Made by a program: the position numbers and the translations under genes. From contig NZ_QGGI01000004.1 of the NCBI RefSeq assembly GCF_003148465.1, positions 115,006 through 179,005 of the forward strand: a stretch of 64,000 nt of DNA, written 5' to 3'. The stretch is from Oceanotoga teriensis (GTDB lineage: Bacteria > Thermotogota > Thermotogae > Petrotogales > Petrotogaceae). Shown here in pieces: positions 36,478 to 60,115 of the stretch. Numbering within the stretch: the first letter of the stretch is position 1; the number at the start of each line of letters is the position of its first letter. Under the pieces are notes generated by a model. The model was not told the DNA's origin, searched no databases, and saw nothing but the letters and a program-made list of their open reading frames with translations.

Positions 36478-36490
36478 TTTTTCATATACA

Positions 36491-36506
36491 ATGAAATATT
36501 TTTCAT
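36491..36506. promoter_or_regulatory. Shared palindrome, copy 1 (iorA distal)
   Basis: ATGAAATATTTTTCAT. The 24 bases 36483-36506 are identical to the complement of 60020-60043 upstream of the DUF3798 transporter. It lies about 145 bases before iorA. Confidence 0.7.
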
Positions 36507-36584
36507 GATTTATCGAAATAATCCTAAATAAAAAGATATAGCTTTAATAAAAGACAATAATTATTAATAATCTTAAAAATCGAG

Positions 36585-36600
36585 ATGAAAAAAATTTCAT
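36585..36600. promoter_or_regulatory. Shared palindrome, copy 2 (iorA proximal)
   Basis: ATGAAAAAAATTTCAT, identical to copy 3 before kal. It overlaps the expected -35 region of the iorA promoter (TATAAT at 36610-36615), a position that fits repression. Confidence 0.72.
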
Positions 36601-36651
36601 TAACTGTTGTATAATAAAAATGGGAGAATATCAAAGGAAAGGGGAGAGTTT

Positions 36652-38427
36652 ATGAAAGTATTAATGACTGGTAATGAAGCTACTGCCAGAGGTGCTTATG
36701 AAGCAGGAGTTACATTTGCGTCGGCATACCCTGGAACTCCAAGTACAGAGATTTTAGAAAATCTTGCAAATTATAAAGAAGTTTACTCTGAATGGACTCC
36801 AAATGAAAAAGTTGCAATTGAAGTTGGAGTTGGAGCATCTATTGCAGGTGCAAGAAGTTTGTCTGCCATGAAACATGTTGGCTTAAATGTTGCTGCAGAC
36901 CCTATGTTTACTTATGCATATTTAGGAGTTAATGGAGGATATGTTATAGTAACTGCTGATGATCCTGGTTTACATTCATCGCAAAACGAACAAGATAATA
37001 GATATTATGCAAGACATGCTAAGATGCCTTTAATAGAGCCATCAAATTCTCAAGAGGCAAAAGATTTTTTAAAGGAAGCATATAAAATATCAGAAAGATT
37101 TGATGTTCCAGTTTTATTCAGATTAACAACTAGAATATGTCATTCAAAAAGTGTTGTAGAACTTGAAGAAAGAAAAGAAGTAGAAAAGAAACCTTATAAA
37201 AGAAATATATCTAAATTTGTTGCAACACCAGCAGCTTGTAGAAAGCATCATGTAGAACTCGAAGAAAAGTTAAAAAAATTAGAAGATTTCTCAAGTAATG
37301 ATACTTGGTTAAACAGAGAAGAAATAAATAACTCAGAAATAGGAATCATAACTTCAGGAATTTCTTATGAATATGCAAAAGAAATTTTTGGAAATGAAGC
37401 TTCATACTTAAAATTAGGAATGAGTTTTCCTATACCAAAAGAAAAAATAAAAAATTTTTCTTCCAAGGTAAAAAAACTTTATGTAATAGAAGAAAATGAA
37501 CCTTTTCTTGAAACAGAAATAAAAGCTATGGGGATAAATGTTATAGGTAAAGAGAAAATACCTTTAACTGGGGAATTAAATCCAGATATAATAGCTGAAA
37601 AACTATTGGGAAAAGAAAATAAAAAAATTTCTGTTAATCCGGAAATGATAGTTCCTAGACCTCCTACACTTTGTTCAGGCTGTCCACATAGAGGATTATT
37701 TTTTGAATTAAGTAAAAGAAAAAATGCAGTTATAACAGGTGATATAGGTTGTTATACTCTTGGTTCAGCAGATCCTTTAAATGCTATGGATACAGTTATA
37801 TGTATGGGGGCTGGAATATCTGCAGCTCATGGTTTTTCAAAAGTATTTGAAAAATCTGGAGAAGAAAAAGAAATTTTTGGTATTGTTGGAGATTCAACAT
37901 TTTTTCATTCGGGTATAACAAGTCTTATAGATATCGTTTATAATAAATCAAAAGTTATATCTATTATACTTGATAATAGAGTTACAGGAATGACAGGACA
38001 TCAAGAAAATCCTGGAACTGGTTATACTTTAATGGGAGAAAAGACGGAAGAAATAGATATAGAAGCTATTGTTAAAGCTGTAGGAATAAAACATGTTAAA
38101 ACGGTTGATCCTAACAAACTCGATGAAGTTAGAAGTGCTATAAATGAATTTACAGTATTAGAAGAACCTTCAGTAATAATAACTAAATGGCCTTGTGCAT
38201 TAAAAAAACTAAGAGAAGAAGAAAAACAAAAATATAAAATTAAAACGGTTAGATATCAAGTAAATCATGAAAAATGTAAAAAATGTAAGATGTGTTTGAA
38301 GGTAGGTTGTCCATCAATTTCTTTTGACAAAAATGTAGGATCTATAATAGATATAAATACCTGTGTTGGATGTTCAGTTTGTGCACAAGTTTGTCCTTTT
38401 GATGCAATAGAAAAGGCAGGTGTTTGA
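36652..38427 (+). CDS. iorA: Indolepyruvate ferredoxin oxidoreductase, alpha subunit
   Basis: IorA oxidatively decarboxylates aryl 2-oxo acids from Trp, Tyr and Phe to acyl-CoA, reducing ferredoxin. N-terminal pyrimidine-binding part: GNEATARGAYEAG and AYPGTPSTEI. TPP-binding part: GDIGCYTLG and GDSTFFHSG. C-terminal Cys-rich ferredoxin-like domain: CKKCKMCLKVGC and CVGCSVCAQVC. The first of these two clusters lacks the usual fourth spacing (KVGCPSISF), as is known for IorA. The frame opens at 36607, but the ATG at 36652 follows GGGGAGAG, giving 591 residues. It pairs with iorB. Confidence 0.94.
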   Translation: MKVLMTGNEATARGAYEAGVTFASAYPGTPSTEILENLANYKEVYSEWTPNEKVAIEVGVGASIAGARSLSAMKHVGLNVAADPMFTYAYLGVNGGYVIVTADDPGLHSSQNEQDNRYYARHAKMPLIEPSNSQEAKDFLKEAYKISERFDVPVLFRLTTRICHSKSVVELEERKEVEKKPYKRNISKFVATPAACRKHHVELEEKLKKLEDFSSNDTWLNREEINNSEIGIITSGISYEYAKEIFGNEASYLKLGMSFPIPKEKIKNFSSKVKKLYVIEENEPFLETEIKAMGINVIGKEKIPLTGELNPDIIAEKLLGKENKKISVNPEMIVPRPPTLCSGCPHRGLFFELSKRKNAVITGDIGCYTLGSADPLNAMDTVICMGAGISAAHGFSKVFEKSGEEKEIFGIVGDSTFFHSGITSLIDIVYNKSKVISIILDNRVTGMTGHQENPGTGYTLMGEKTEEIDIEAIVKAVGIKHVKTVDPNKLDEVRSAINEFTVLEEPSVIITKWPCALKKLREEEKQKYKIKTVRYQVNHEKCKKCKMCLKVGCPSISFDKNVGSIIDINTCVGCSVCAQVCPFDAIEKAGV

Positions 38428-38428
38428 T

Positions 38429-39007
38429 ATGATTAAAGAAACTAAAAATGTTTTACTTGTTGGTGTAGGTGGACAAGGAATAATTTTAACTTCAAAGATA
38501 ATATCTACGGCACTTTTAAATGCTGGATACGATGTTAAAATGTCTGAAGTTCATGGTATGGCCCAAAGAGGTGGATCTGTTACAACTCAGATAAGATATG
38601 GAGAACAAGTTTATTCGCCCATAATCGGAAAAGGGCAAGCCGATGTTTTAATATCATTTGAAAAAATGGAAGCTATGAGATGGATTGAATATTTAAAACC
38701 TGATGGATTATTGGTTATAAATGATCATGAAATCCAATCAGCACCTATACTTTCAGGAAAAGCAGAGTATCCAGAAGGAATAATTGAAGAATTAAAAACA
38801 AAAGTTAAAACCTTAATAATTCCAGCTACTAAAATTGCGATAGAATTGGGAAATATAAAAACACAAAATATAGTACTTCTTGCACCTTTGACCAAGGCTT
38901 TGGGTCTTGAAAATATAGATTGGGAAGAATCAATAAAAAATAATGTTAAAGAGAAATTTATAGATATGAACTTAAAAGCTTATAAAAAAGGACTTGAAAT
39001 ATCCTAA
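38429..39007 (+). CDS. iorB: Indolepyruvate ferredoxin oxidoreductase, beta subunit
   Basis: The gamma-type subunit of the oxidoreductase (192 residues). It has LLVGVGGQGIILTSKI near the start, then EVHGMAQRGGSVTTQIRYG and YSPIIGKGQADVLISFE, all typical of IorB. The frame opens at a GTG at 38420 inside iorA, but the ATG at 38429 has AGGTG at good spacing and follows the iorA stop by one base. The two subunits must be made together. Confidence 0.93.
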   Translation: MIKETKNVLLVGVGGQGIILTSKIISTALLNAGYDVKMSEVHGMAQRGGSVTTQIRYGEQVYSPIIGKGQADVLISFEKMEAMRWIEYLKPDGLLVINDHEIQSAPILSGKAEYPEGIIEELKTKVKTLIIPATKIAIELGNIKTQNIVLLAPLTKALGLENIDWEESIKNNVKEKFIDMNLKAYKKGLEIS

Positions 39008-39010
39008 AAT

Positions 39011-39044
39011 AATACCCGGATTTTTAATAATCCGGGTTATTTAT
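39011..39044. terminator. Terminator of iorAB
   Basis: AATACCCGGATT/AATCCGGGTTAT hairpin between convergent genes, followed by TTTA on the plus strand. Confidence 0.82.
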
Positions 39045-39868: not shown

Positions 39869-39893
39869 ATATAACAAATAAGGAGGTATAGCT

Positions 39894-41033
39894 GTGAACT
39901 TCAACTTGACAAAAGAACAGGAAATTGTAAAAAAAATGGTAAGAGAATTTACAGAAAATGAAGTAAAGCCAATTGCAGCTGAGATAGACCAAACTGAAAG
40001 ATTTCCTATGGAAAATGTAGAGAAGATGAAGAAATATGGTTTTTTTGGTATGAATATGCCAAAAGAATATGGTGGTGCTGGAACAGATGAAATGAGTTAT
40101 GTATTAGCTGTAGAAGAGTTATCAAGATATTGTGCTACAACAGGAGTAATTCTTTCTGCACACAATTCTTTAGCTTGTTGGCCTATATATAAATTTGGGA
40201 CAGAAGAACAAAAACAAAAATACTTAGTTCCTCTTGCAAAAGGTAAGAAATTGGGTTCATTTGCATTAACAGAACCAAATGCTGGAACAGATGCTGCTGG
40301 TCAGCAAACTTTCGCAAAAAAAGATGGGGAAGATTGGATAATAAATGGATCAAAAATATTTATAACAAATGGTAAGTATGCGGATATATATGTTATTTTT
40401 GCTATGACAGAACCTAGTAAAGGAACTAGAGGAATAAGTGCCTTTATAATAGAAAAAGGAATGGAAGGTTTTTCAATAGGTAAAATAGAAGACAAAATGG
40501 GAATAAGAGGATCAGCTACCGCAGAACTCATATTTCAAAATTTAAGAGTACCTAAAGAAAATATGTTGGGTCAAGAAGGAAAAGGTTTTAAAATTGCTAT
40601 GCAAACTTTAGATGGCGGAAGAATAGGTATAGCTGCTCAAGCATTAGGTATAGCTCAAGGTGCAATGGATGAAACTTTGAATTATATCAATCAAAGAGAA
40701 CAATTTGGCAGATCTATAAGTAAATTTCAAGCATTACAATTTAATATAGCTGATATGGAAACTCAAATACAAGCTGCAAGACTATTAGTTTATCAATCTG
40801 CTCAGGCAAAAAATGATGGACAACCTTATTCAAAGCTTGCGGCTATGGCAAAATTATTTGCTGCTGAAACAGCGATGTTTGTAACTACAAAAGCGGTTCA
40901 ACTTCATGGTGGTTATGGATATACTAAAGATTATCCAGTTGAAAGAATGATGAGAGATGCTAAAATTACAGAAATATATGAAGGAACTTCTGAAGTTCAA
41001 AGAATGGTTATAGCAGCTAATACGATAAAGTAA
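39894..41033 (+). CDS. bcd: Acyl-CoA (butyryl-CoA) dehydrogenase
   Basis: FAD enzyme that, with EtfAB, reduces crotonyl-CoA to butyryl-CoA. In bifurcating complexes it couples this to ferredoxin reduction. The 379 residues include the FAD blocks FALTEPNAGTDA and WIINGSKIFITNG, and the catalytic Glu363 in IYEGTSEVQRMV. It starts at GTG behind a strong AAGGAGGT. It is first in an operon with etfB, etfA and maoC, just upstream of the lysine cluster that makes crotonyl-CoA, so the butyryl-CoA role is well supported by context. Confidence 0.93.
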   Translation: MNFNLTKEQEIVKKMVREFTENEVKPIAAEIDQTERFPMENVEKMKKYGFFGMNMPKEYGGAGTDEMSYVLAVEELSRYCATTGVILSAHNSLACWPIYKFGTEEQKQKYLVPLAKGKKLGSFALTEPNAGTDAAGQQTFAKKDGEDWIINGSKIFITNGKYADIYVIFAMTEPSKGTRGISAFIIEKGMEGFSIGKIEDKMGIRGSATAELIFQNLRVPKENMLGQEGKGFKIAMQTLDGGRIGIAAQALGIAQGAMDETLNYINQREQFGRSISKFQALQFNIADMETQIQAARLLVYQSAQAKNDGQPYSKLAAMAKLFAAETAMFVTTKAVQLHGGYGYTKDYPVERMMRDAKITEIYEGTSEVQRMVIAANTIK

Positions 41034-41050
41034 AAAGGAGGAAAATAAAA

Positions 41051-43483: not shown

Positions 43484-43492
43484 TGATATAAT
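43484..43492 (+). promoter_or_regulatory. Extended -10 promoter of the lysine operon
   Basis: TGATATAAT contains TGn plus perfect TATAAT (43487-43492). The shared palindrome at 43506-43521 begins about where transcription would start. Confidence 0.6.
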
Positions 43493-43505: not shown

Positions 43506-43521
43506 ATGAAAAAAATTTCAT
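43506..43521. promoter_or_regulatory. Shared palindrome, copy 3 (before kal)
   Basis: ATGAAAAAAATTTCAT, identical to the iorA-proximal copy, 43 bases before the kal start and directly downstream of the predicted -10. Confidence 0.75.
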
Positions 43522-43563: not shown

Positions 43564-43947
43564 ATGGAACAAGTTATTATAAGACTTAGAATGAGTCAGG
43601 CAGATGCTCATTATGGTGGAAATCTTGTTGATGGTGCTAAAATGCTTCAATTATTTGGAGATGTTGCAACAGAATTACTGATAAGAAATGATGGAGATGA
43701 AGGATTATTTAGGGCTTATGAAAGTGTAGACTTTTTAAATCCTGTATATGCAGGAGATTATATTGAAGCAACTGGTAAAATAATCAAACAGGGTAAAACT
43801 TCCAGAAAAATGGAGTTTATTGCAAGAAAAGTTATATCTCCAAGACCAGATATAAATGATTCAGCTGCCGATCTTCTTGAAGATTCAATAGTTGTTTGTA
43901 AAGCTGTTGGAACATGTATAGTCCCTGCTGATAAACAAAGGAGATGA
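43564..43947 (+). CDS. kal: 3-aminobutyryl-CoA ammonia lyase
   Basis: Kal deaminates L-3-aminobutyryl-CoA to crotonyl-CoA, linking lysine breakdown to butyryl-CoA formation. The 127-residue hot-dog-fold protein has [20 protein letters not shown] at the start and [19 protein letters not shown], which match this small family. It is first in the lysine operon, right before kce, as in the Fusobacterium-type cluster. GAGGAGG precedes the ATG. Confidence 0.9.
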
Positions 43948-43951
43948 TGCT

Positions 43952-44770
43952 ATGGAAAAATTAATAATTACTGCTGCATTAACTGGAGCTGAAGTAACAA
44001 GAGAACAGCAACCAAATCTTTCTTTGACTCCGCAGGAAATAGCGGATGAAGCTTATGAATGTTATAAAGCTGGCGTTTCTATAGTTCATGTACATGCAAG
44101 AGATAAGAATGGAAATCCTTCACAGGATTTCGAAATATATAAAGAAATTTCAAAAAAAATAAAAGAAAAATGTGATGTTATTTTTCAACCTTCTACAGGA
44201 GGAGCTGTATGGCATTCTTTTGAAGAAAGAATGCAACCTCTGAAATTAAACCCTGAAATGGCAACACTTTCAGCTGGTACATGTAATTTTGGAGATGATA
44301 TTTTTGTGAATTCTAAAGAATATATAGAAAAATTTGCATTAGAAATGAAGAATAGGGGTATTAAACCAGAAATAGAAGTTTTTGAAAGAGGAATGATTCA
44401 AAATGCAATAAATTTAAACAAAAACGGATTGATTGAATCACCTATGCATTTTGATTTTGTTATGGGAGTTCCAGGTGCGATACCAGGAAATATAGATGAT
44501 TTGGTATATATGGTTAATAAAATACCAGAAGATGCAACTTGGACAGTTGCAGGAATTGGTAGATTTGAATTATCACTTGCAGTACATGCAATTCTTATGG
44601 GGGGACATGTCAGAGTTGGATTTGAAGATAATATATATTATAAGAAAGGTGAAAAAGCTTTATCAAATGTTCAACTAGTTGAAAGAATAGTTAGAATTTC
44701 TAAGGAAATTGGTAGAGAAATTGCAACACCAGATGAAGCTAGAAAAATATTAAACATTAAAGGGAGTTGA
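43952..44770 (+). CDS. kce: 3-keto-5-aminohexanoate cleavage enzyme
   Basis: Kce condenses 3-keto-5-aminohexanoate with acetyl-CoA and yields acetoacetate plus 3-aminobutyryl-CoA. The 272-residue TIM-barrel enzyme has AALTGAEVTREQQPNLSLTP, the zinc-binding VHVHARDKNG, and FQPSTGGA. EVFERGM, GVPGAIPGN and VRVGFEDNIYY follow. It lies between kal and kdd. The zinc ligands His-x-His are visible; the third ligand is probably the Glu in VGFEDN. Confidence 0.94.
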   Translation: MEKLIITAALTGAEVTREQQPNLSLTPQEIADEAYECYKAGVSIVHVHARDKNGNPSQDFEIYKEISKKIKEKCDVIFQPSTGGAVWHSFEERMQPLKLNPEMATLSAGTCNFGDDIFVNSKEYIEKFALEMKNRGIKPEIEVFERGMIQNAINLNKNGLIESPMHFDFVMGVPGAIPGNIDDLVYMVNKIPEDATWTVAGIGRFELSLAVHAILMGGHVRVGFEDNIYYKKGEKALSNVQLVERIVRISKEIGREIATPDEARKILNIKGS

Positions 44771-44774
44771 TCAT

Positions 44775-45806
44775 ATGAAATTGGGAAACCCATATGGAAC
44801 ACATAGAGTTATAGAACCTAAGGGAGCTTTGCCTCAGCCAGCAAAAAAAATAAATAATGATATGAATATATATTCTAATGAAATCTTATTAAATGTTAAG
44901 ACTTTGAATGTAGATTCAGCAAGCTTTACACAAATAAAAAATGCTTGTGATAATGATGAGAAAAAAATAGAAAATATGATTTTAAATATAGTCAATGAGA
45001 GAGGTAAACTTCAAAATCCAGTTACTGGTTCGGGTGGGATGCTCATAGGAGAAGTTTTAGAAATAGGAGATGATTTCCCAGATAAAGATTTATGTGTTGG
45101 AGATAAAATAGCCACACTAGTTTCTTTATCTTTAACTCCTTTGAAGATAGATCGTATTTTAAAAATTAATAAAGATACTGATCAGGTTGATATCATTGGA
45201 AAAGCCATTCTTTTTGAGAGTGGTTTGTATGCAAAAATTCCCGAAGATATATCCGAAAAATTATCTTTAGCTGTTTTAGATGTTGCAGGAGCTCCTGCAC
45301 AAGTTAATAAACTTGTTAAAGACGGTCAAAATGTTTGTATAATAGGTGGCGGAGGAAAGTCTGGAGTGCTTTGTGCATATCAAGCTAAAAAGAATGCAAA
45401 AAATGGAAAAGTAATAGTTGTTGAATACTCCAAAGAAAATGCTGAAAGACTTAAAAAACTCGATATTGTTGATGAAGTTGTAGTAGCAGATGCTACAAAG
45501 CCTGTTGATATATATGAAAAAATTTGTGATATTACAAAAAATGAATTATGCGATGTTGTTATAAATAATGTTAATGTGGAAAATACCGAAATGTCTTCTA
45601 TTTTAATAACAAAAGATGAAGGAATAGTTTATTTTTTTTCTATGGCTACATCATTTACTAAAGCAGCTCTGGGTGCTGAAGGTGTTGGAAAAGATATAAA
45701 TATGATCATTGGTAATGGATATACTAAAAATCATGCAGATTTGAGTTTGAATATTCTTAGGGAATCAAATAAAATAAGGAATTTATTTGAAAAATTATAT
45801 ATTTAG
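44775..45806 (+). CDS. kdd: L-erythro-3,5-diaminohexanoate dehydrogenase
   Basis: Kdd oxidatively deaminates 3,5-diaminohexanoate to 3-keto-5-aminohexanoate using NAD+. The 343-residue protein opens with [20 protein letters not shown], the characteristic start of this family. It has a medium-chain-dehydrogenase-like nucleotide fold ([19 protein letters not shown]). Context between kce and kamA is the established lysine-fermentation order. GGGAG precedes the ATG. Confidence 0.94.
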
Positions 45807-45817
45807 GGGGAGATAAG

Positions 45818-47089
45818 ATGCGGTCATATAAAGATATCTCTTTATGGAAAGATATTAACGATGAACAATGGAATGATTGGCATTGGCAAATAAAAAATAG
45901 AATAACTGATGTTGAATCATTAAAAAAAGTTATAAATTTAACTGAAGATGAAGAAGAAGGAGTGAAGAATGCACTTAAAACATTGAGAATGGCAATAACT
46001 CCATATTATGCCCTTTTAATGGATCCAAATGATCCAAAAGATCCGATAAGAAGACAGGCAGTTCCAACTGGAAAAGAATTGCTCGTGGATAGGTGGGATA
46101 TGTTGGATCCATTGCATGAAGATGCAGATTCACCTGTTCCTGGTTTAACACATAGATATCCAGATAGAGTTTTATTTTTGATAACAGACATGTGTTCTAT
46201 GTATTGTAGACATTGTACAAGAAGGAGATTTGCTGGTCAAACTGATTCAGCAAGAACAAAAAAAGAAATAGATGCGGCTATAGAATATATAAGAGAAACT
46301 CCTGAAGTTAGAGATGTTCTATTATCTGGAGGAGATGCTCTTCTTGCAGGATTACAAATGCTTGAATATATAATAAAAGAATTGAGAAGTATTCCTCATG
46401 TTGAGATAATAAGAATAGGAACAAGAGCTCCTGTTGTTTTACCTCAAATAATCACTCCTGAACTTGTAAATATGTTAGGTAAATATCATCCTATATGGAT
46501 TAATACACATTTTAATCATCCAAAAGAAATAACTCCTGAATCTACAAAAGCATGTGAAATGCTTTCAAATGCTGGAATACCTCTCGGAAATCAGAGTGTT
46601 CTATTAAAAGGAGTTAATGATAGTAAGTATATAATGATGGAATTAGTTCATCAACTTGTAAAGATAAGAGTTAGACCATATTATATATATCAATGTGATT
46701 TATCACAAGGTATAGGTCATTTTAGAACATCTGTCAGAAAAGGACTTGGTATTATGGAAAGTCTTATAGGTCATACATCTGGTTATTGTGTTCCAACTTT
46801 TGTTGTTGATGCACCGGGTGGTGGAGGAAAAATAAGACTTATGCCACAATATATGGTTTCAGAAAGTGATGGAAGTGTTATTTTAAGAAATTATGAAGGG
46901 GTTATAACTACATATCATGAACCAGAAGATACTAAAACAGATGTAAATGATTCTGAATATAGAAAAAAATATGAATTAAAAGGTGTTGCTGCACTTTTTG
47001 AGGCTAAAGATGGAAAGATAAGTCTTGAACCTGAGAATCTCGATAGAGGTAATAGAGTTAAAGAATGGAAGAAAAAACATAGTTTATGA
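45818..47089 (+). CDS. kamA: Lysine 2,3-aminomutase
   Basis: Radical-SAM, PLP-dependent enzyme that converts L-lysine to L-beta-lysine, the first step of the pathway. The 423 residues include the [4Fe-4S]/SAM motif Cys126-x3-Cys130-x2-Cys133 (CSMYCRHC), the GGDALL block, and [12 protein letters not shown], where the PLP lysine is expected. [15 protein letters not shown], with probable zinc- and substrate-binding residues, follows. The length and order match the clostridial enzyme. Two ATP-binding accessory genes follow. Confidence 0.96.
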
Positions 47090-47103
47090 TGAGGGAATAA
47101 AAT

Positions 47104-48099
47104 ATGGATTTAAATTTGAATTTTAAAAGTATTTCTGTTGTTGGATTAGAAAAAAATACTGGAAAAACAGAAACTTTGAATTATCTCATAAAAAAATTAA
47201 ATAAAACCAAAATTCTTGGTTTGACTTCAATAGGAATAGATGGTGAGAAATGTGATCAAGTTACTTATACATCAAAACCTGAAATAAAAATAAAAGAAAA
47301 TATGATTTTTGCGACTTCTGAAAAACATTTTTTACAAAAAAAATTCAATGCGGAAATCTTATATGTTTCAAACAGTAAAACATCCCTTGGAAGAATAGTC
47401 ATTGCAAGAAGTCTTGAAAATGGGCTAGTATTATTATCTGGCCCATCTTCAACTTATAAAATGTATGAAATCATAAATAAAATAAAAAATTATAATTCAG
47501 ATACAGTTTTAATAGATGGTGCGATTTCAAGGCTTTCTCCATCATCACCATTCATAACAGAATCTATGATCTTAACCACAGGAGCTGCAGTTTCTTTAAA
47601 TCAAAAAGAACTGGTGAAAAAAACAGTGCATGTTTTTAATCTTATAAATATAAACCCTTATAAAGGATTATACAGTGAAGAGTTTAAAAAATATGAAGAA
47701 GGCATATTTTATATTAAAGAAAATAATTTTTATAGATTGAATATAAAAACTCTTTTAAACATAAAAAATTTGAATAAAGATATTTCAGAATATTCATATA
47801 AGATATATACTACGGGATCATTAACAAATAATTTTATTAAATATTTAATAGAAAGAAAAGATACCGGAAAATTCGAAATTATAGTAAAAGATTATACAAA
47901 ATTATTTCTGAGTTCAGAAATTTTTTTGCTTTTTTTAAAAAGGGGAGGAAAATTAAGAGTCTTAAAAAAACCAAATTTAATTGCTATAACTGTAAATCCA
48001 GTTTCTCCACAAGGTTATATTATGAATAGTGATAATATAGTTTCAGATTTGAAAAATTATATTGATATACCTATTTTCGATGTTAGAAAGGTTGATTAG
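47104..48099 (+). CDS. P-loop accessory protein of aminomutase cluster
   Basis: A 331-residue protein encoded in every Fusobacterium-type kam cluster I know of, at the same place, between kamA and kamDE, and often misnamed MutL. The sequence shows a P-loop near the N-terminus (VGLEKNTGKTETLNYLI, about 14-30) and ILIDGAISRLSPSSP as a likely Walker B-like region. I see no GHKL ATPase motifs, so mismatch repair is not supported. With the MutS-like neighbour it may act on lysine 5,6-aminomutase, for example exchanging damaged cobalamin. That is inference. The MutS-like gene starts at the next base after its stop. Confidence 0.75.
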   Translation: MDLNLNFKSISVVGLEKNTGKTETLNYLIKKLNKTKILGLTSIGIDGEKCDQVTYTSKPEIKIKENMIFATSEKHFLQKKFNAEILYVSNSKTSLGRIVIARSLENGLVLLSGPSSTYKMYEIINKIKNYNSDTVLIDGAISRLSPSSPFITESMILTTGAAVSLNQKELVKKTVHVFNLININPYKGLYSEEFKKYEEGIFYIKENNFYRLNIKTLLNIKNLNKDISEYSYKIYTTGSLTNNFIKYLIERKDTGKFEIIVKDYTKLFLSSEIFLLFLKRGGKLRVLKKPNLIAITVNPVSPQGYIMNSDNIVSDLKNYIDIPIFDVRKVD

Positions 48100-49470
48100 A
48101 TGTATAAAAATAAAGAAATTAATTTTATTTTAAAAGATATGAATTTATATTCGCCAATTGGATGCAAATATATAGAAAAATTAAAATTTATGACCAATAT
48201 TGAGGATATAGAAAATGAATATGAAAGAATAGAAATAATGAGAAATTATATTAAAAATATTAATTTAATAAATCCTCTAAAAGTTTCTTTGTCTCATATT
48301 AAAGATATTGAAAATACAATATATAAATTATCCGATTCAAATTTATTTTTTAATGATATAGAGTTATTTGAAATAAAAAATTTTTGTATATATTGTGAAG
48401 AAATTTATAATTTGAAAATAGATTCCATAGAAAACTTATTTCCAAAAAGTACAAAAAATTTAATAAATCTTTTAGATCCAGAAAAATATGGATTAAATTC
48501 TTTTTATATTTATAATTCTTATTCAGAAGATTTAAAAGAATTAAGAAAAAAGAAAAAAATTTTTCAAATAGAAGGCAAAGAAAATGAAGAAGCTTATTTG
48601 AACCTTTTGTATGAGGAAAGTAAATTAGAAGATTTGATAAGAAAAAAATTAACGGATATTATCAGAAAAGATTTTAAAATATTAAAAGAAAATTTCGAAA
48701 AAATATCTTACTTGGATTATTTGATAGCTAAAACAGAATTAATAGAAAAGAAAAAATTTGTTAGACCAAGATATTCAAAAAATAATACAGTTTATAAAGG
48801 GCTTTTTAATCCTAGAGTTTTAGATATTTTAAAAAATAAAAATAAGAATTATCAGTCGATTGATGTGAATATAAATCACAAATTAAATATCATAATGGGT
48901 GCCAATATGACTGGAAAAACAGTCTTTTTAAAATCTTTAGCAATTTCCCAATATCTTTTTCAATATGGTTTTTATGTTCCAGCGGAGAATGCTTGTTTAG
49001 ATGTATACGATGATATTGTGATAAATATAGGTGATTCTCAAAATATAGAGAAGGGCTTATCCTCTTATGCTTCTGAAATATTGAAAATAAACGAAGCATT
49101 GAAAAGGTTAAAAAAAGGTGAAAAATTATTTATAATTTTTGATGAATTTGCAAGAACAACTAATCCTGAAGAAGGAGTTGCAATAATAAATGGAACTTTG
49201 AAGACTTTTTATAATTATAATTGTACATTTTTTCTTTCTACTCATTATAGTGGAATCAATTATGAGAATGTTGATTTATTTACAGTTAAAGGGCTAAAGA
49301 AAGATATTTTAAATCTAGAGTTAAAAGCAAATGAAATTGAAAAGTATATAGATTATTCAATTTTAAAAATAGAAGATGAAAAAATGGTATCTAAAGATGC
49401 TATTAATATAGCAAAAATTTTAGGGGTTGATGAAGAATTGATTTTTAATTCTATAGAAAGTCTTGAATGA
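48100..49470 (+). CDS. MutS-like ATPase of aminomutase cluster
   Basis: A 456-residue protein with only the core-clamp and ATPase parts of MutS and no mismatch-binding N-terminal domain. The ATPase shows Walker A GANMTGKT (267-274), a Walker B-like LFIIFDEFARTTNPEEG, and FFLSTHYSG. This matches the MutS-like gene of Fusobacterium-type lysine clusters. Absence of the DNA-mismatch domain and its position between kamA and kamD argue for a metabolic role, such as reactivating the B12 enzyme. It overlaps no neighbour but is tightly packed. Confidence 0.8.
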   Translation: MYKNKEINFILKDMNLYSPIGCKYIEKLKFMTNIEDIENEYERIEIMRNYIKNINLINPLKVSLSHIKDIENTIYKLSDSNLFFNDIELFEIKNFCIYCEEIYNLKIDSIENLFPKSTKNLINLLDPEKYGLNSFYIYNSYSEDLKELRKKKKIFQIEGKENEEAYLNLLYEESKLEDLIRKKLTDIIRKDFKILKENFEKISYLDYLIAKTELIEKKKFVRPRYSKNNTVYKGLFNPRVLDILKNKNKNYQSIDVNINHKLNIIMGANMTGKTVFLKSLAISQYLFQYGFYVPAENACLDVYDDIVINIGDSQNIEKGLSSYASEILKINEALKRLKKGEKLFIIFDEFARTTNPEEGVAIINGTLKTFYNYNCTFFLSTHYSGINYENVDLFTVKGLKKDILNLELKANEIEKYIDYSILKIEDEKMVSKDAINIAKILGVDEELIFNSIESLE

Positions 49471-49483
49471 AAGGAGATATATT

Positions 49484-51046
49484 ATGCGAGAGAGTAAATT
49501 GGGATTAAATTGGAAATATGTAGATGAAGCAAGAAGTAGTGCAAAGAATATAGCTGAAAAAGTTCAGGATTTTGTTGATGTATATTCAACTGTTTCAGTT
49601 GAAAGAACTATATGTAGATTTTTTGAAATAGATGGAGTGAATGATGAAGATATACCTTTGCCAAATGTACTTATAGATCATTTAAAAGAGAATAATAGTT
49701 TAAGTAGTGGTGCAGCTTTTTATATTTCTAATGCTATGATTGAAACTGGTATGAAACCTCAAGAAATAGCAGAAAAGATATCTTCTGGAGATCTGAATAT
49801 AACTAAACTCCCGATAAATGATTTTAATAAAATAAAAGAAAATATAAATCCATTAGTAAAAAGTATGGTCAAAAGAATAAAAGAAAATAAAGAAAAAAGA
49901 GATGGATACATAAAAAATATAGGTGAAGGTAAAAAGCCATATCTTTATGTAATAGTTGCAACTGGAAATGTTTATGAAGATGTTGTTCAAGCACAAGCAG
50001 CAGCAAGACAGGGAGCAGATATAATAGCAGTTATAAGATCAACAGGTCAAAGTTTATTAGATTATGTTCCTTATGGACCTACAACTGAAGGTTTTGGAGG
50101 AACTATGGCAACTCAAGAAAACTTTAGAATAATGAGAAGAGCTCTTGATGAAGTTGGAGAAGAAGTTGGAAGATATATAAGACTTGTGAATTATGCTTCT
50201 GGTCTTTGTATGCCAGAAATTGCAGGTATGGGAGCAATGGAAAGATTAGATGTTATGCTAAACGATGCATTATATGGTATATTATTCAGAGATATAAATA
50301 TGCAAAGAACAATAATAGATCAATATTTTTCGAGAGTTATAAATGGATTTGCTGGAATTATTATAAATACTGGAGAAGATAATTATTTAACTACTGCAGA
50401 TGCTTATGAGGAAGCACATACTGTTTTAGCTTCTGATTTTATAAATGAACAATTGGCATTGATTGCAGGTATTCCAGAAGAACAGATGGGCCTTGGACAT
50501 GCTTTTGAAATGAGTCCAGATATAGAAAATGGATTTTTGTATGAATTAGCTCAAGCCCAAATGATAAGAGAGATATTCCCAAATGCACCTTTAAAATATA
50601 TGCCACCTACAAAATATATGACTGGTAACATATTTAGAGGACATGTACAAGATGCATTATTCAATGTGATATCAATATGGACGAATCAAGGAATACAACT
50701 TCTTGGAATGCTCACTGAAGCAATTCATACTCCTTTTATGTCAGACAGATATTTATCAATAGAAAATGCTAAATATATATTCAATAACATGAGAAATCTT
50801 GGAGATGAAATAGTGTTTAAAGAAAATGGAGTTATACAGAAGAGAGCGAATCATGTTTTAGAAAAATCAAAAGATCTTTTAAAAACTATAGAAGGAGAAG
50901 GTCTTTTTAATGCACTTGAAAAAGGTGTTTTTGCAGATGTTAAAAGGCCTAAAAATGGTGGTAAAGGTCTTAATGGGGTTTTTGAAAAGGATAAAAATTA
51001 TTTTAATCCATTTATTGAAGAAATGTTAGGGGCTGATAAACGATGA
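49484..51046 (+). CDS. kamD: Lysine 5,6-aminomutase, alpha subunit
   Basis: The large TIM-barrel subunit of the adenosylcobalamin- and PLP-dependent enzyme that moves the terminal amino group of beta-lysine (or D-lysine). The 520-residue protein has LIVIVATGNVYEDVVQAQAA-like VIVATGNVYEDV, YGPTTEGFGGTMATQENF and LGHAFEMSPDIENG, typical of KamD. The frame opens at 49463, but the ATG at 49484 follows AAAGGAGA. The stop overlaps the kamE start. Confidence 0.95.
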   Translation: MRESKLGLNWKYVDEARSSAKNIAEKVQDFVDVYSTVSVERTICRFFEIDGVNDEDIPLPNVLIDHLKENNSLSSGAAFYISNAMIETGMKPQEIAEKISSGDLNITKLPINDFNKIKENINPLVKSMVKRIKENKEKRDGYIKNIGEGKKPYLYVIVATGNVYEDVVQAQAAARQGADIIAVIRSTGQSLLDYVPYGPTTEGFGGTMATQENFRIMRRALDEVGEEVGRYIRLVNYASGLCMPEIAGMGAMERLDVMLNDALYGILFRDINMQRTIIDQYFSRVINGFAGIIINTGEDNYLTTADAYEEAHTVLASDFINEQLALIAGIPEEQMGLGHAFEMSPDIENGFLYELAQAQMIREIFPNAPLKYMPPTKYMTGNIFRGHVQDALFNVISIWTNQGIQLLGMLTEAIHTPFMSDRYLSIENAKYIFNNMRNLGDEIVFKENGVIQKRANHVLEKSKDLLKTIEGEGLFNALEKGVFADVKRPKNGGKGLNGVFEKDKNYFNPFIEEMLGADKR

Positions 51047-51834
51047 GTGGAGGTTTATATTCATTAAATAAAAAAGATTATGATAAAACTTTAGATTTGA
51101 AAAATGTAAAACCGTATGGAGATACTATGAATGATGGTAAAGTTCAATTGAGTTTTACATTACCAGTTCCATATGGAGATGAAGCTGTTGAAGCTGCAAA
51201 AATACTTATGAGAAAAATGGGATTTCAAAACCCTCAAATAGTTTTTTATAAAGAATTAAATAAAGGATTTACTTTTTTTAATGCTTATGGAGAATGTCCC
51301 CATGCAGTAGATTATACAGTTATTGAAGTGCCTAAAGTTAAAGTTGATAAAATGTCAATGGAAGAAATAGATGATTATATAAAAAATAATATAGGAAGAA
51401 AACTTGTCGTAATAGGTGCTAGTACTGGTACTGATGCACATACAGTTGGAATAGATGCTATAATGAACATGAAAGGATTTGCTGGTCATTATGGTCTCGA
51501 AAGATATGAGATGTTCGATGCTTATAATATGGGATCTCAAGTTTTAAATGAAGATCTTATTTCTAAAGCTATTGAATTAAATGCAGATGCCATATTAGTT
51601 TCTCAAACGGTAACCCAAAAAAATATTCATATTCAAAATATGACTGAGTTTATAGAGCTTGCAGAAGCTGAAGGAATAAGAAAAAAGACTATTTTAATAG
51701 CTGGTGGTGCGAGAATTAATCATGAACTTGCAAAAGAAATAGGTTTTGATGCGGGGTTTGGGCCAAATTCTTTTGCTGATGATGTTGGTGCATATATAGC
51801 TAATGAAATAGTGAATAGAATGAAAGATGATTAA
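51043..51834 (+). CDS. kamE: Lysine 5,6-aminomutase, beta subunit
   Basis: The cobalamin-binding small subunit (263 residues). It carries the base-off B12 motif Asp131-x-His133-x2-Gly136 (TDAHTVG) and Lys144, the position known in Clostridium sticklandii to bind PLP. It overlaps kamD by four bases. It closes the pathway operon, ending just before a bidirectional terminator. Confidence 0.96.
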   Translation: MSGGLYSLNKKDYDKTLDLKNVKPYGDTMNDGKVQLSFTLPVPYGDEAVEAAKILMRKMGFQNPQIVFYKELNKGFTFFNAYGECPHAVDYTVIEVPKVKVDKMSMEEIDDYIKNNIGRKLVVIGASTGTDAHTVGIDAIMNMKGFAGHYGLERYEMFDAYNMGSQVLNEDLISKAIELNADAILVSQTVTQKNIHIQNMTEFIELAEAEGIRKKTILIAGGARINHELAKEIGFDAGFGPNSFADDVGAYIANEIVNRMKDD

Positions 51835-54886: not shown

Positions 54887-55999
54887 TTAATTATTATCTG
54901 AGGGAGAAGTATCTCCTCTGAATTCAAATCTTGCCCTTTCTTTATCTTTTTGTCTTCTCCAGGCATGTAAAGCTAATGAAATTGCAATTATACCATAAGA
55001 TATGAAGACTCTAAAGAATTCTCCAAGCATAGCCGAACCTATAAGTTCTTTTCCAGCCCTTGGAGATACAACAAACATCATGTGAAATAGTATTATTCCA
55101 AGAAAAGCGTTTGGTATAGTAGCTTTTATAACTGATGCTCCCCCTATTAAAAGAGCTGCTATTGAAAACATACCTATTTGTTCATGAGAATTATAAGTAT
55201 TCATAGTACCTATGTTTTGCAAAAAAAGTATTTGACCAAATGCTGCAAAAACAGTTGAAATTATTATTGATAATATTCTTGTTCTTTCAACAGCTATACC
55301 AGATGATCTTGCAACTTCCATATCCTGACCAACAGCTTTCATATCTTGTCCAAGTTTAGTTTTTCTAAACCATACTATAATAATACATAGTATTGCTATT
55401 ACAACAAAAGTCATGATAGGTATTCTTATATTTCCTATATTTAAAGGTATTAAATCATCTAAAACTCTTCTTATACCATTTAAATCTATTGCATTTCTTA
55501 TACCATAACCTCTTGGTAATAATATGTTTTTATTAGTTATTGGTATTATATTTCCCATTCCATATAAAACTATTATCTGATAAACTCCATTTATAAAAAA
55601 ACCAAGTATATAAGAGGTTACAGTTTCTCTACCTTTTGCTCTGTTTAATATTATACCTCCAAGTATTCCTAATAATATAGCTATAGGGGTTGATATTATC
55701 ATAGCTAAAAATAGCCCTGAAATTCCAACTATGCCCCAGTCAGTTATAAAAATTAAACCTATTTGACCGGCCATAGCTCCAAGAACTATTCCAAAATTTA
55801 ATCCCATTCCTGCGATTACAGGAATTAAAAGAGATAAAACTAAAAAGGAATTTCGAGATAATCTTATTATCATTTCTTGTATTAAATATTCTGGAGAAAA
55901 ACCAGATATTGGAATAGAAATTGCAGATAAAATTATAAATATTATTGGAACTGCATTACTTATAAAAAAATGAGATAATTTATCTTTTTTATTATCCAT
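54887..55999 (-). CDS. ABC importer permease 2
   Basis: A 370-residue permease of the branched-chain/simple-sugar/nucleoside type with eight to ten hydrophobic segments. The coupling segment GQDMKAVGQDMEVARSSGI matches the EAA-like loop of this family. The charged C-terminal tail ends RGDTSPSDNN. It overlaps the first permease gene by one base (TGATG). The two different permeases probably form a heterodimer. Confidence 0.9.
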   Translation of the reverse strand: MDNKKDKLSHFFISNAVPIIFIILSAISIPISGFSPEYLIQEMIIRLSRNSFLVLSLLIPVIAGMGLNFGIVLGAMAGQIGLIFITDWGIVGISGLFLAMIISTPIAILLGILGGIILNRAKGRETVTSYILGFFINGVYQIIVLYGMGNIIPITNKNILLPRGYGIRNAIDLNGIRRVLDDLIPLNIGNIRIPIMTFVVIAILCIIIVWFRKTKLGQDMKAVGQDMEVARSSGIAVERTRILSIIISTVFAAFGQILFLQNIGTMNTYNSHEQIGMFSIAALLIGGASVIKATIPNAFLGIILFHMMFVVSPRAGKELIGSAMLGEFFRVFISYGIIAISLALHAWRRQKDKERARFEFRGDTSPSDNN

Positions 56000-57042
56000 C
56001 AGCTATTCACCTTCTTTACTCTCGTTAATGCATACAATATCATGCCATTTGAAACTATTATTCTTATAGTTTCTGACATATCTGTTTGTATAATATTATT
56101 TATTACAGAAGGTGTCATTGTAAGTATACCTTGAAATAATATTGTACCTATTATTACATGGGTTATAGTTGCTTTATGAATAGATGCACCACCAAGTAAT
56201 ATTGCAGCAACAGCTGGAAACGCCATATAAAAAGGACCTTGGTATAATTGAATAAAACCAAATGTTTGTTCATAAACTATTATTCCTATTCCACCAAGAA
56301 TTGTTGAAAATACCACTGATATTATTCTCATTTTATTTATGTTGATGCCTGAAGCTCTTGCATAATCAGGGTTTGATCCTACAGCACTCATTGCGGTTCC
56401 TGTTTTTGTTTTGAAAAACATCCATACAATTAAACACATCAATATAAAGAATAGTATGAGACCGGTTGGAATTGTTATATAATCATTTATTTTTATTGGC
56501 AAAAAGTCATTTAATACATGATACCAATATTTTTCAACACTTATTGTAGTTCTCAACCCTTCACCACCATAAGCCCATATCATATCAGGACTCTTAAATG
56601 GCAATAATAACCACATCATAGACATAAAAGCAACTGAAGAAAATCCTACATACACTGAAACAGTCATTTCATCACCTTTTACTCTATTTAGAAGTATTCC
56701 ATAACCTATTCCAAATATTAATGCAAATGGAATAGATATTATTATAGCCATTATGAAACCAGCGAATCCTGTTATACCTATTTCTATACTTATAACAGCC
56801 CCCAAAAGTCCAGCGATTATACCTAATGGAAGTCCAAAATTTAATCCACAACCAGACTGTATCATGGGTACCATAGCTAAAACAAGTACAGAATTCATAC
56901 CAAATCTAATTAATGTATCAGATATGGATGTATCTAATCTTAGACCTACAAAAGGTGTAGCTATAAAGAAAGATAATAAAAATAAAGCTATTATTATCCT
57001 TGGCCAACCAGCTTTTTCAATAAAATTATTTATTTTATTCAT
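55999..57042 (-). CDS. ABC importer permease 1
   Basis: A 347-residue permease, paralogous to the next one, with segments such as LVLAMVPMIQSGCGLNFGL, the coupling loop TAMSAVGSNPDYARASGI, and LLGGASIHKATI. The family moves sugars, nucleosides or branched-chain amino acids; the substrate is not evident. It overlaps the ATPase gene by four bases (ATGA). Confidence 0.9.
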   Translation of the reverse strand: MNKINNFIEKAGWPRIIIALFLLSFFIATPFVGLRLDTSISDTLIRFGMNSVLVLAMVPMIQSGCGLNFGLPLGIIAGLLGAVISIEIGITGFAGFIMAIIISIPFALIFGIGYGILLNRVKGDEMTVSVYVGFSSVAFMSMMWLLLPFKSPDMIWAYGGEGLRTTISVEKYWYHVLNDFLPIKINDYITIPTGLILFFILMCLIVWMFFKTKTGTAMSAVGSNPDYARASGININKMRIISVVFSTILGGIGIIVYEQTFGFIQLYQGPFYMAFPAVAAILLGGASIHKATITHVIIGTILFQGILTMTPSVINNIIQTDMSETIRIIVSNGMILYALTRVKKVNS

Positions 57043-58652
57043 ACATTACTCACCTTCTTTGAATCGGTACTCACATTACCAACCATAAGTTCTCCAAAAG
57101 AAGCTATTGGATCTTTAGGAGAAAGTATACCTGCAATTTTTCCTTCATTTACTATTGAAATTCTGTCACATATAGATCTAAGTTCTTCTAGTTCAGAAGA
57201 AGCTATTATTATTGTTGTACCATATTCTTTATTGTATTTTTTTAAAGTATCTAACACTAATTGTTTAGCACCCACATCAATGCCTCTTGTAGGTTCTGAT
57301 ACAAATAATAAATCTGGTTTTAATGCAAATGATTTAGCAAGGCAAACTTTTTGTTGATTTCCACCAGAAAGTTCTTTTGCTTTTTGTTTCTCAGAAGTAC
57401 ACTTTATTTCTAATGAGTTTATATATTCATTTGCAATATTTTGTAGACTTTCATCATCTCGCCACTTCAATAATCCACCGAATAATTTTTTTATAAATTT
57501 TTCTTGAATATTCATGGCTGTAAACCCTATATTTAGATCTATAGGTTCATCTAATAATAAACCCACACCTCGTCTATCCTCTGATACAAAGGCAAGCCCT
57601 TTTTTTAAAGGTGTCAGAGCATCATTTAAGTGAAGTTCCTGACCTCGAAATTCTACGTATCCACCAGCAGGATATAAACCCATTATTCCATTGGCTATTC
57701 CTAGTTTTCCTTGACCAGCAAGCCCTCCAATACCAAATATTTCACCTTCATATATTTCAAGTGAAACATCTCTAACAGTTTCACCAGGCATATCCACCCA
57801 TAATTTTTTGGTTTTAAAAATAATATTTTCAAATTTTCTTTCTTCAATAGATTTTTTTTCTTTTTTTTCTAAACTTCTTCCGACCATCCATTCAGATATT
57901 TCATGAATACTTGTATCAGAAGGTGAGACTTCTTTTATTAATTCGCCGTCCCTTAAAACAACTATTTTATCTGATATATCAAGAATTTCTTTCAATCTAT
58001 GAGATATAAAGATTATGGATATACCTTTTTTTGATAATTTTTTAATTGTTTTTAAGAGTATATCGGCTTCGGATTCTGTCAATACTGCTGTTGGTTCATC
58101 TAATACAAGAATTTTTGTATTTTTTCTATCTATTTCTCTGGCTATTTCTGTAAATTGCTTATGTCCAACTGGCATTTCATTTACAAGCATATTTATATCT
58201 ACATTTACTTCGAGAGTTTTTATAGCTTTTTCAGCCCTTTTTTTCATTTTAGATCTATTTAGTGTTGAAAGTCTGTCTCCAAAAATATCAACCATAAAAT
58301 TATATTTTGTATCTTCTCTATTAAATACTATATTTTCATAAGCTGTAAATCCAGGGATCAAAGAAAATTCTTGATGAACCATTCCTATTCCTGCATCTAA
58401 AGCATCAAAAGAAGAATTAAAATTAATTTCAGAACCATTTAAATAAATTTTTCCTCCATAACCACCAGTATCTTTTATTATATTAGAGCCAAATATTATA
58501 TTCATCATAGTTGATTTACCAGCACCATTTTCTCCAACTAATCCTATTATTTCTCCCTGTTCAATGGTTAAATTAATATCATTGAGAACTTTATTCCCAA
58601 AGAAATCTTTAGAGATGTTCTCGAGTTTTAATAATGGAACTTTTTCATTCAT
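57039..58652 (-). CDS. ABC importer ATPase with two nucleotide-binding domains
   Basis: A 537-residue sugar/nucleoside-type importer ATPase with two ABC domains. The first has an intact Walker A GENGAGKST and Walker B KILVLDEPTAVLTE. The second has a degenerate Walker A (GLAGQGKLG), the signature LSGGNQQK and FVSEPTRGIDVGA, as typical for MglA/RbsA-like proteins. The frame opens at 58661 inside the ribosome site GAGGTG, so the ATG at 58652 is used. A hairpin separates it from the binding-protein gene. Confidence 0.93.
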   Translation of the reverse strand: MNEKVPLLKLENISKDFFGNKVLNDINLTIEQGEIIGLVGENGAGKSTMMNIIFGSNIIKDTGGYGGKIYLNGSEINFNSSFDALDAGIGMVHQEFSLIPGFTAYENIVFNREDTKYNFMVDIFGDRLSTLNRSKMKKRAEKAIKTLEVNVDINMLVNEMPVGHKQFTEIAREIDRKNTKILVLDEPTAVLTESEADILLKTIKKLSKKGISIIFISHRLKEILDISDKIVVLRDGELIKEVSPSDTSIHEISEWMVGRSLEKKEKKSIEERKFENIIFKTKKLWVDMPGETVRDVSLEIYEGEIFGIGGLAGQGKLGIANGIMGLYPAGGYVEFRGQELHLNDALTPLKKGLAFVSEDRRGVGLLLDEPIDLNIGFTAMNIQEKFIKKLFGGLLKWRDDESLQNIANEYINSLEIKCTSEKQKAKELSGGNQQKVCLAKSFALKPDLLFVSEPTRGIDVGAKQLVLDTLKKYNKEYGTTIIIASSELEELRSICDRISIVNEGKIAGILSPKDPIASFGELMVGNVSTDSKKVSNV

Positions 58653-58673
58653 CAAATTCACCTCTTTATCAAA

Positions 58674-58703
58674 ATAATAAGGGAACTTAAGTTCCCTTAT
58701 TAT
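58674..58703 (-). terminator. Intercistronic hairpin in importer operon
   Basis: A perfect 15-bp-arm palindrome (ATAATAAGGGAACTT with AAGTTCCCTTATTAT) between the binding-protein and ATPase genes, followed by TTTTG on the minus strand. It probably terminates or stabilises part of the transcripts so that the binding protein is made in excess. Confidence 0.72.
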
Positions 58704-58718
58704 GAGTAAATAATTTAT

Positions 58719-59894
58719 TTATTCTATTCCAAAATATTTATCTGGAACTTCTAAGCTTGTCATTCCTAAATAACCTTTACCGAAAACATATGTGTCTTGA
58801 TAAACAAGTATGAAATTTTCTCTGTCAACTCCGTCAGCATCAACATAATAACTTCCATTCCAACCTGCTCCAGGAGTATATTTCATGAATGATTTCATTA
58901 CAGCATCAAAATCTAATAATTCTTCTTTTTTATTTATTACATTGATTGCATGTTCTCCAAGTGCGGCTGTTGTTGTGAATCCAAATGAATATGCCCAAGT
59001 TCCCATTCTATTTTTTCCGCCTCTATCAACAACTTCTTTTTCAACTTTTTTAAGTATTGCAGGCCAATTACCTTTTTCATTATCCGTAAAAACTATACCT
59101 AATGCTCCGGGATAACCCATTGTTGGAGAAGGCAAATCAGCTTCTACAAAGAATCCACCTAATTCAGAAACTTTCTTTAAAAGAGGTTCTGTATGTGCAT
59201 CATTTGTACAGAAGAAAGCTGTTTTATTTCCATATGCATCAAGCCATGCAGGAACTTTTTCTAATATAAATTGTTGAGCACCAGCTATACCTATATCACT
59301 TGTAGGATCAGGAGAGCCCATATCTATAAATTCCATTCCAAGATCTTTTGCAGCTTCTCTCATTATGTCTCTTCTTCTTGATAATAATTCATAACTCATA
59401 TGCCTTGGAAAAGAAATATGCATGAATTTTTCGGCCCCAAGCATTTTTGCAGCCTTTACGATTAAATAACCTCTTGCAACATTGTCAGGCGTTACAGATA
59501 AATCTGCAGCATCTGCTATCATTCCAGGATCTTCATGAGGATTACCAGCGAGTAATATTATGTCAGGTCTTTTTTCTTTTATTCTTCTAAAAGCTTCAAC
59601 TGTTCCTGGAACAGCTTGGTTTACAACTATTGCTTTCATTAAAGGATCATCTGAAAGCCCAACTATTTGAGCTATGGTAGTTTCCATTTCTTGCATAAAA
59701 TTATCTGGATATGTAACATGCTGAATCATTCCACCATTTGCAACATCACCATATTCCTTTATCAATTGTTCTGCTCCTCTTAAATCATCTTCACTTTGAG
59801 AAACAGTTCCTGTTACAACCCCAATATGAAAGTTTGCCGAAAAACTAAATACCATAAAAGATAATAATAATATCAAACTTAATATCTTTTTCAA
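58719..59894 (-). CDS. DUF3798-type extracytoplasmic binding protein
   Basis: A 391-residue exported binding protein (signal peptide about 1-19, SFMVFSFSANF) with the periplasmic-binding-protein layout. Blocks IGVVTGTVSQSEDDLRGAEQ, MIADAADLSVTPDNVARGY, TAFFCTNDAHTEPLL and TWAYSFGFTTTAALGEHA are what I recall of the DUF3798 family, which has no known substrate. It heads a five-gene importer operon. The frame opens at 59912, but TTG at 59894 follows GGGGGTG. The shared palindrome about 125 bases upstream ties it to the amino-acid fermentation genes, so an amino acid or a fermentation intermediate is a guess for its ligand. Confidence 0.83.
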   Translation of the reverse strand: MKKILSLILLLSFMVFSFSANFHIGVVTGTVSQSEDDLRGAEQLIKEYGDVANGGMIQHVTYPDNFMQEMETTIAQIVGLSDDPLMKAIVVNQAVPGTVEAFRRIKEKRPDIILLAGNPHEDPGMIADAADLSVTPDNVARGYLIVKAAKMLGAEKFMHISFPRHMSYELLSRRRDIMREAAKDLGMEFIDMGSPDPTSDIGIAGAQQFILEKVPAWLDAYGNKTAFFCTNDAHTEPLLKKVSELGGFFVEADLPSPTMGYPGALGIVFTDNEKGNWPAILKKVEKEVVDRGGKNRMGTWAYSFGFTTTAALGEHAINVINKKEELLDFDAVMKSFMKYTPGAGWNGSYYVDADGVDRENFILVYQDTYVFGKGYLGMTSLEVPDKYFGIE

Positions 59895-60019
59895 TTGCCA
59901 CACCCCCTTCAATTAAATATAATTTAATTGAATTATAACACAAAATAAATATAAATTAAAATTATGATTACTATTATTATAACAAATATGAAGAAAATAT
60001 TTACAAATATTAATGTTTA

Positions 60020-60035
60020 ATGAAAAATATTTCAT
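60020..60035. promoter_or_regulatory. Shared palindrome, copy 4 (before DUF3798 importer)
   Basis: On the minus strand it reads ATGAAATATTTTTCAT, the same as the iorA-distal copy. The identity extends over 24 bases (60020-60043 with 36483-36506). Confidence 0.7.
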
Positions 60036-60115
60036 TGTATATGTTTGATTTAATAAAATGTTAATAGGGGATTATAGAGAGGCTTGAAAATAGTAGGTTA
60101 TAGTTAATAATAAGT

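Follow-up and report, generated by a model that had tools for sequence, protein, structure and literature searches.

ATGAAA-N4-TTTCAT, a promoter element shared by Petrotogaceae and a likely operator of amino-acid uptake and catabolism genes

A 64,000-nucleotide stretch of the Oceanotoga teriensis genome (contig NZ_QGGI01000004.1, positions 115,006 to 179,005; hereafter the window) carries copies of a 16-bp palindrome, ATGAAA-N4-TTTCAT, in front of iorAB, a lysine fermentation operon starting with kal, and an importer with a DUF3798 binding protein. This raises the question whether these operons answer to one regulator, as the initial annotation proposed, and which other genes would belong to the same regulon. 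The comparison reported here, which covers eight genera of what is likely the family Petrotogaceae, identifies ATGAAA-(A4 or T4)-TTTCAT as a family-wide promoter element. As judged from sequence, it is probably the operator at which one global regulator, a dimer acting mostly as a repressor, controls the uptake and breakdown of amino acids.

The palindrome in the window and in the O. teriensis genome

An exact-match scan of the window returned four copies, all at the positions listed in the initial annotation (Table 1), whereas 100 dinucleotide shuffles of the window gave a mean of 0.06 and a maximum of 1. Sequence comparison confirmed that the 16-mer of copy 2 is identical to that of copy 3, which reads ATGAAAAAAATTTCAT in the kal leader, and that copy 1 is the reverse complement of copy 4, within 24 identical bases (36483-36506 and 60020-60043). 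This 24-base identity in opposite orientation may go back to an old duplication or have arisen by chance. The window contains 80 perfect 6-N4-6 palindromes, in which ATGAAA is the most frequent arm (4 copies), followed by AAATTT (3 copies). Because matches with up to two mismatches show no clear excess in the window (37 vs 32 expected, a number reached by 24 of 100 shuffles), only near-exact sites are counted below.

The whole genome (2,793,031 bases in 45 contigs) contains 17 exact sites vs 2 for the reversed pattern. A first-order (dinucleotide) model predicts 4.6 sites per genome and higher-order models no more than 8.1, while the expectation for intergenic sequence is 0.2-0.5 (from a model trained on only 4,077 bases, sites included). 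Fifteen sites, distributed over 13 regions, precede genes, and two are intragenic (L018 and L019). In this count, a site within the first 60 nt of a frame was scored as upstream. Naive frames place four of the 17 sites inside frames, two of which (L023 and L026) were recounted as upstream, because in both the longest frame opens within the site or shortly before it, and a Shine-Dalgarno sequence and start codon come after the site. At seven of the 13 regions, the genes that the sites face have roles in amino-acid or peptide metabolism, methylmalonyl-CoA mutase included. Besides this mutase, the seven comprise an aspartate-type aminotransferase with MutL, an Opp-type binding protein, arginine deiminase, serine hydroxymethyltransferase (SHMT) with a divergent aminotransferase-kinase-phosphotransacylase operon, iorAB, and the lysine operon.

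When one mismatch was allowed in an 18-letter pattern, 95 sites vs 31 were found in the same genome. Among the matches listed whose loci were read, 13 are upstream of genes or at gene starts, some of them only because genes begin with ATGAAA, and 16 are inside frames. One-mismatch promoter sites precede hutH and a threonine dehydrogenase gene, and further such targets, named by resemblance, are an aminotransferase, an Opp binding protein, and an importer.

Distribution and targets across genomes

The phylum set comprised 103 genomes from 38 genera, with 21 genomes of the family, 17 of a sister family, and 65 others. Under a first-order model, with composition taken from the fetched loci only, 11 family genomes from eight genera contain 112 exact sites vs 27.7 expected (2.0-8.2 fold each), whereas eight sister-family genomes contain 5 vs 8.8 expected. 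All 112 family sites were read: 100 are upstream and 12 intragenic, and 98 of the 100 upstream sites have a gene facing them within 450 bp. Of the five sister-family sites, three are intragenic and two upstream. The spacer is AAAA or TTTT in 56 of the 100 upstream sites vs one of the 12 intragenic sites (AAAA), and AATA or TATT in another 15 upstream sites. As background, AAAA and TTTT together make up 8% of 4-mers in intergenic sequence of the window and fill 6 of 32 spacers in AAA-N4-TTT contexts. Since A/T-tract spacers are enriched upstream, the functional site has a preferred centre, so that the arms described in the initial annotation stand and its unspecified N4 has to be narrowed.

These data bear on whether the palindrome is regulatory at all. 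At a GC content of 26.8%, as in the window, AT-rich palindromes are common, there is no clear enrichment at two mismatches, and the reversed control is also exceeded in other families, all of which would suit a repeat, a structural element, or a word arising by chance in AT-rich sequence. The excess of family sites (112 vs 27.7 expected), their location, their recurrence before the same functions in several genera, and a spacer bias confined to upstream sites make such an explanation hardly credible, and Rfam gave no match at the sites.

We next grouped targets at 40% identity and 60% coverage. Ten groups have exact sites in at least three of the eight genera, the kind of recurrence by which comparative genomics recognizes a global regulon. 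A pyridoxal phosphate-dependent aminotransferase is preceded by exact sites in five genera, and three groups are in four genera each: 2,4-diaminopentanoate dehydrogenase (Ord, NF040740) of ornithine fermentation, arginine deiminase, and SHMT of serine/glycine metabolism, the last mostly in the same divergent region as the aminotransferase. The groups found in three genera are an ABC_sub_bind importer, an Opp-type binding protein, methylmalonyl-CoA mutase, an aspartate-type aminotransferase, a CoA-transferase, which is the first gene of the kal operon in G004 and G005, and an O-antigen-ligase-like membrane protein. The latter (L017:6151-8772, L154, and L304) is an unexplained member of an amino-acid regulon. 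The conservation in relatives that the initial annotation called for is therefore seen, with the motif upstream of the same functions in several of the eight genera. Its proposal of a shared regulator of amino-acid fermentation and import agrees with this recurrence and with lysine operon heads fetched by protein (see below), although the set is wider than proposed. In one or a few genomes, sites also precede genes for glutamate dehydrogenase, phosphoenolpyruvate carboxykinase, fructose-bisphosphate aldolase/phosphatase, phosphofructokinase, glutamine synthetase, phosphotransacylase, and the one-carbon enzymes glycine cleavage T and formate-tetrahydrofolate ligase.

For the three operons of the window, conservation was assessed separately. 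Lysine operon heads carry exact sites in G004, G005, and G007 (in G007, the locus holds only the start of kal). Loci fetched with the Kal protein include the lysine head of Marinitoga lauensis, with two one-mismatch sites, and two near-identical loci from Thermotogae metagenome-assembled genomes (L066 and L067), with an exact site 35 bp before a first gene that begins like that of G007. A scan of 400 bp upstream of kal in 80 loci, which misses operons starting elsewhere, returned one one-mismatch site (L101, Cloacimonadota) and otherwise sites with at least two mismatches. Of the five heads that were read further, L063, L066, and L067 have sites, and two Fervidobacterium loci (L108 and L118) have none with 0-1 mismatches at the lysine head. 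Among four close orthologues of iorA, that of G004 has a one-mismatch site at -74 (-70 in O. teriensis, both from codon 2) with a similarly spaced TATAAT, and that of G001 has two overlapping two-mismatch sites. A one-mismatch site precedes two of the seven DUF3798 orthologues (G049 at -73 and G009 at -360), and four have two-mismatch sites only, which occur at the chance rate and are weak evidence. At iorA and DUF3798, the element of the window is thus only partially conserved.

Several observations weigh against a global amino-acid repressor. Six of the 13 O. teriensis promoter regions have no obvious amino-acid link: those of an O-antigen-ligase-like protein, a folate ECF transporter, MsrAB (with a 143-aa gene and a histidine kinase on the other side of the site), a TPR protein, a Gate-domain protein (an assignment below its Pfam cut-off), and the DUF3798 importer, whose substrate is unassigned. 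Within 400 bp, no site with up to two mismatches precedes the iorA orthologues of G007 and G011 or the DUF3798 gene of G001, and the lysine loci of G004, G005, and G007 were retrieved via the motif itself. No transcription factor was recognized among the genes facing the 112 sites, only some of which were Pfam-scanned. The median distance from site to start, 138 bp, is also compatible with activation. One sister-family site lies 7 bp before an Opp-like gene. Finally, exact sites exceed the reversed pattern in all 21 family genomes (222 vs 33), and they do so outside the family as well (14 vs 2 in the 17 sister-family genomes, and 69 vs 15 in the 65 others). As a control, the reversed pattern is therefore weak, and the family-specific evidence is the dinucleotide expectation together with site location. 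What this control lacks in power is compensated by the dinucleotide expectation and by the lysine heads that were fetched with the Kal protein.

Mode of action and candidate regulators

The conserved TGA and TCA of the two arms have their centres 11 bp apart, one helical turn. Because two inverted ATGAAA half-sites are spaced in this way, one dimer per site is expected. In one region, at the SHMT, aminotransferase, or kinase genes, two sites recur with a period of 14 bp and so share 2 bp. Five genera (G000; G002 and G012; G003; G004; G006) have retained this tandem, which would seat two dimers. From a position on the -35, the -10/start region, or the leader, a bound protein would block its targets, that is fermentation of Lys, Arg, Orn, Ser/Gly/Thr, His, and aromatic/branched amino acids and the peptide/amino-acid importers, and would release them once amino acids become the carbon source.

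In agreement with this scheme, copies 2 and 3 are placed where a repressor would act, as the initial annotation had pointed out. In 18 of 139 site-gene pairs, the site is at most 45 bp from the start codon, several sites touching the Shine-Dalgarno sequence, and the kal site comes just after the presumed -10, which suggests repression as the simplest reading for such sites and argues against a regulator that mainly activates. That the regulator activates amino-acid catabolism, or acts both ways, is nonetheless a minority possibility to be reckoned with: the distant sites leave room for it, half of the site-gene distances being 89-230 bp, the double site of the SHMT/aminotransferase region sits between divergent genes, and global regulators are often dual. 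A histogram of TATAAT around the sites showed no single preferred position and is inflated by homologous promoters. Histidine kinases face or follow sites in L024 and L159.

Which protein would read the element? Known operators offer several comparisons. The cre site of Firmicutes CcpA, WTGNAANCGNWNNCAW, is likewise an even 16-bp palindrome with TGAAA/TTTCA half-sites, and CcpA likewise controls amino-acid catabolism and gluconeogenesis. LacI-family operators have a central CG, with 49 of 1173 transcription factors differing and 29 degenerate (PMC4052901). CG is found in none of the 100 upstream spacers studied here, and no LacI group is present in all eight family genomes compared. The ARG box of ArgR shares a TGAA(T)-W4-(A)TTCA architecture, and arginine catabolism is among the present targets, but the letter next to the spacer is A here instead of T. 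CodY and Lrp resemble the proposed factor in that a single regulator governs amino-acid uptake and catabolism, but their motifs differ, the CodY box being AATTTTCWGAAAATT. The ArgR DNA-binding domain (PF01316) was found in none of 21 genomes (13 family and 8 sister-family), with 9 of 14 controls positive, including Thermotoga maritima, and Lrp/AsnC (AsnC_trans_reg, PF01037) in none of the same genomes, with 11 of 14 controls positive. Both were consequently rejected. CarR of Fusobacterium nucleatum is a global regulator that binds the kal promoter and other amino-acid genes, with a radA site between -10 and start (PMC12186487). It belongs to a different phylum, and the 17-bp boxes listed in Table 1 of that paper are almost pure A/T and without ATGAAA/TTTCAT arms, on which ground CarR was rejected too.

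A protein from a classical family is nevertheless the better bet, somewhat favoured over other sources: GntR, MarR, TetR, CRP, DeoR/SorC, XRE-cupin, CodY, or an ArsR-type or LacI protein missed or replaced in some genera. For LacI, one group is present in six of the eight family genomes, including G006. A first LacI gene of G001 has orthologues with 52-59% identity in G000, G003, G004, G006, and G012, the best matches in G005 and G007 (80% complete, one fragment hit left out) being 32-36%, while a second one adjoins a beta-glucosidase-like gene and has no close counterpart in G004, G005, or G007. The conserved group (L329, L333, L334, L338, L346, and L348) neighbours tyrS and secG in several family genomes and, in some, a glucan-hydrolase-like gene, with no site of 0-1 mismatches nearby. 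Because it is not clearly present in G005 and G007 and its locus looks local, we rejected it, though not firmly, as the shared regulator; it is probably a local regulator.

On the ArsR side, the TGAA-N6-TTCA spacing is like that of SmtB/CzrA-type operators, and in two genomes of one genus ATCAAA-N4-TTTGAT, with the same 6-4-6 geometry and one letter changed per arm, lies just upstream of an ArsR gene (L248:1706-1721, L249:1329-1344, and L249:1706-1721). HTH_20 hits occur in all 21 genomes. The only two in G012, on the other hand, are an ArsR with its own, different operator and a ROK protein, and this search yielded no clear common protein. In O. teriensis, a one-mismatch site lies upstream of an OsmC-like gene, a gene in which an ArsR-type helix-turn-helix is fused to a domain judged TusA-like by eye, and an oxidoreductase-like gene (L253:1108-2326). 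None of the other family loci examined showed the ArsR-TusA protein.

A different kind of candidate is a protein of 232 aa in O. teriensis (L177:5485-6183; relatives in L195-L214), about 230-240 aa long and present in 20 of 21 family genomes. It belongs to no Pfam family. A winged helix with invariant residues in the recognition helix is predicted at its C terminus, and a search of solved-structure sequences with its profile gave nothing significant. An autoregulated neighbour was dropped as an interpretation, since its 24 loci show varied, often housekeeping-like surroundings, and for the same reason it stays a candidate, a weak one. That the regulator is this family-restricted protein, from an unnamed transcription-factor family, seems doubtful. 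Were it so, its near-invariant recognition helix would read ATGAAA-A4-TTTCAT, and Thermotogota would have its first global regulator, one that stands in for ArgR, Lrp, and CcpA in this lineage, a possibility that we regard as a long shot.

The proposed operator would place one promoter element over amino-acid catabolism across eight genera of one family, in a phylum whose model genus has been described as doing without global regulatory factors (PMC3750489). The Thermotoga sugar regulons in that paper, from the same phylum and likewise with operators from comparative genomics, are local, and a different spaced motif has been reported for P. mobilis (PMC5217627). Among the literature matches listed (subscription papers and RegPrecise were outside the search), neither the motif nor a Petrotogaceae global amino-acid regulator is described, and five spellings of the motif letters returned one unrelated Borrelia paper for one spelling. 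Such a regulon would explain sugar/peptide switching in Petrotogaceae fermenters and would link the DUF3798 importer, the ABC_sub_bind importer, and the O-antigen-ligase-like protein to amino-acid metabolism. A bait sequence and a target list are now at hand for finding the regulator.

Genes and promoters beside the window copies

The features next to the four copies are collected in Table 1. Within the lysine operon, NCBIfam supports kal, kamA, and kamC, and we take kce, kdd, kamD, and kamE from operon order.

Table 1. Palindrome copies and adjoining features (positions in the window)
Feature	Position	Strand	Remarks
Operator copy 1	36491..36506	.	exact match; 145 bp from end to iorA ATG (36652)
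Operator copy 2	36585..36600	.	exact match; over presumed iorA -35 region; 51 bp from end to ATG
Presumed -10 of iorA, TATAAT	36610..36615	+	prediction from sequence reading
iorA, indolepyruvate oxidoreductase alpha-type	36652..38427	+	Pfam POR_N, TPP_enzyme_C, Fer4, scanned from codon 2
iorB	38420..39007	+	NF005325 above cut-off
Presumed -10 of lysine operon, TATAAT	43487..43492	+	prediction from sequence reading
Operator copy 3	43506..43521	.	exact match; just 3' of presumed -10; kal start 43 bp away
Lysine fermentation operon	43564..51834	+	kal, kce, kdd, kamA, 331-aa gene, kamC, two more genes presumed kamD/kamE
DUF3798 importer, whole	54887..59912	-	profile matches for 3 of 4 genes; 55999-57042 inferred from position
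Permease gene of importer	54887-55999	-	importer component
Permease gene of importer	55999-57042	-	importer component
Sugar-type ABC ATPase	57039-58661	-	importer component
DUF3798 binding protein	58719-59912	-	importer component
Operator copy 4	60020..60035	.	exact match; DUF3798 reading frame begins 108 bp downstream

Between iorB and the lysine operon, an acyl-CoA dehydrogenase gene (39894-41033) has no site with up to two mismatches just upstream; its counterpart in G001 (73% identical) is preceded, at 168 bp, by an exact site (L057). Elsewhere in the window, three tRNA genes stand side by side on the + strand (6971-7227).

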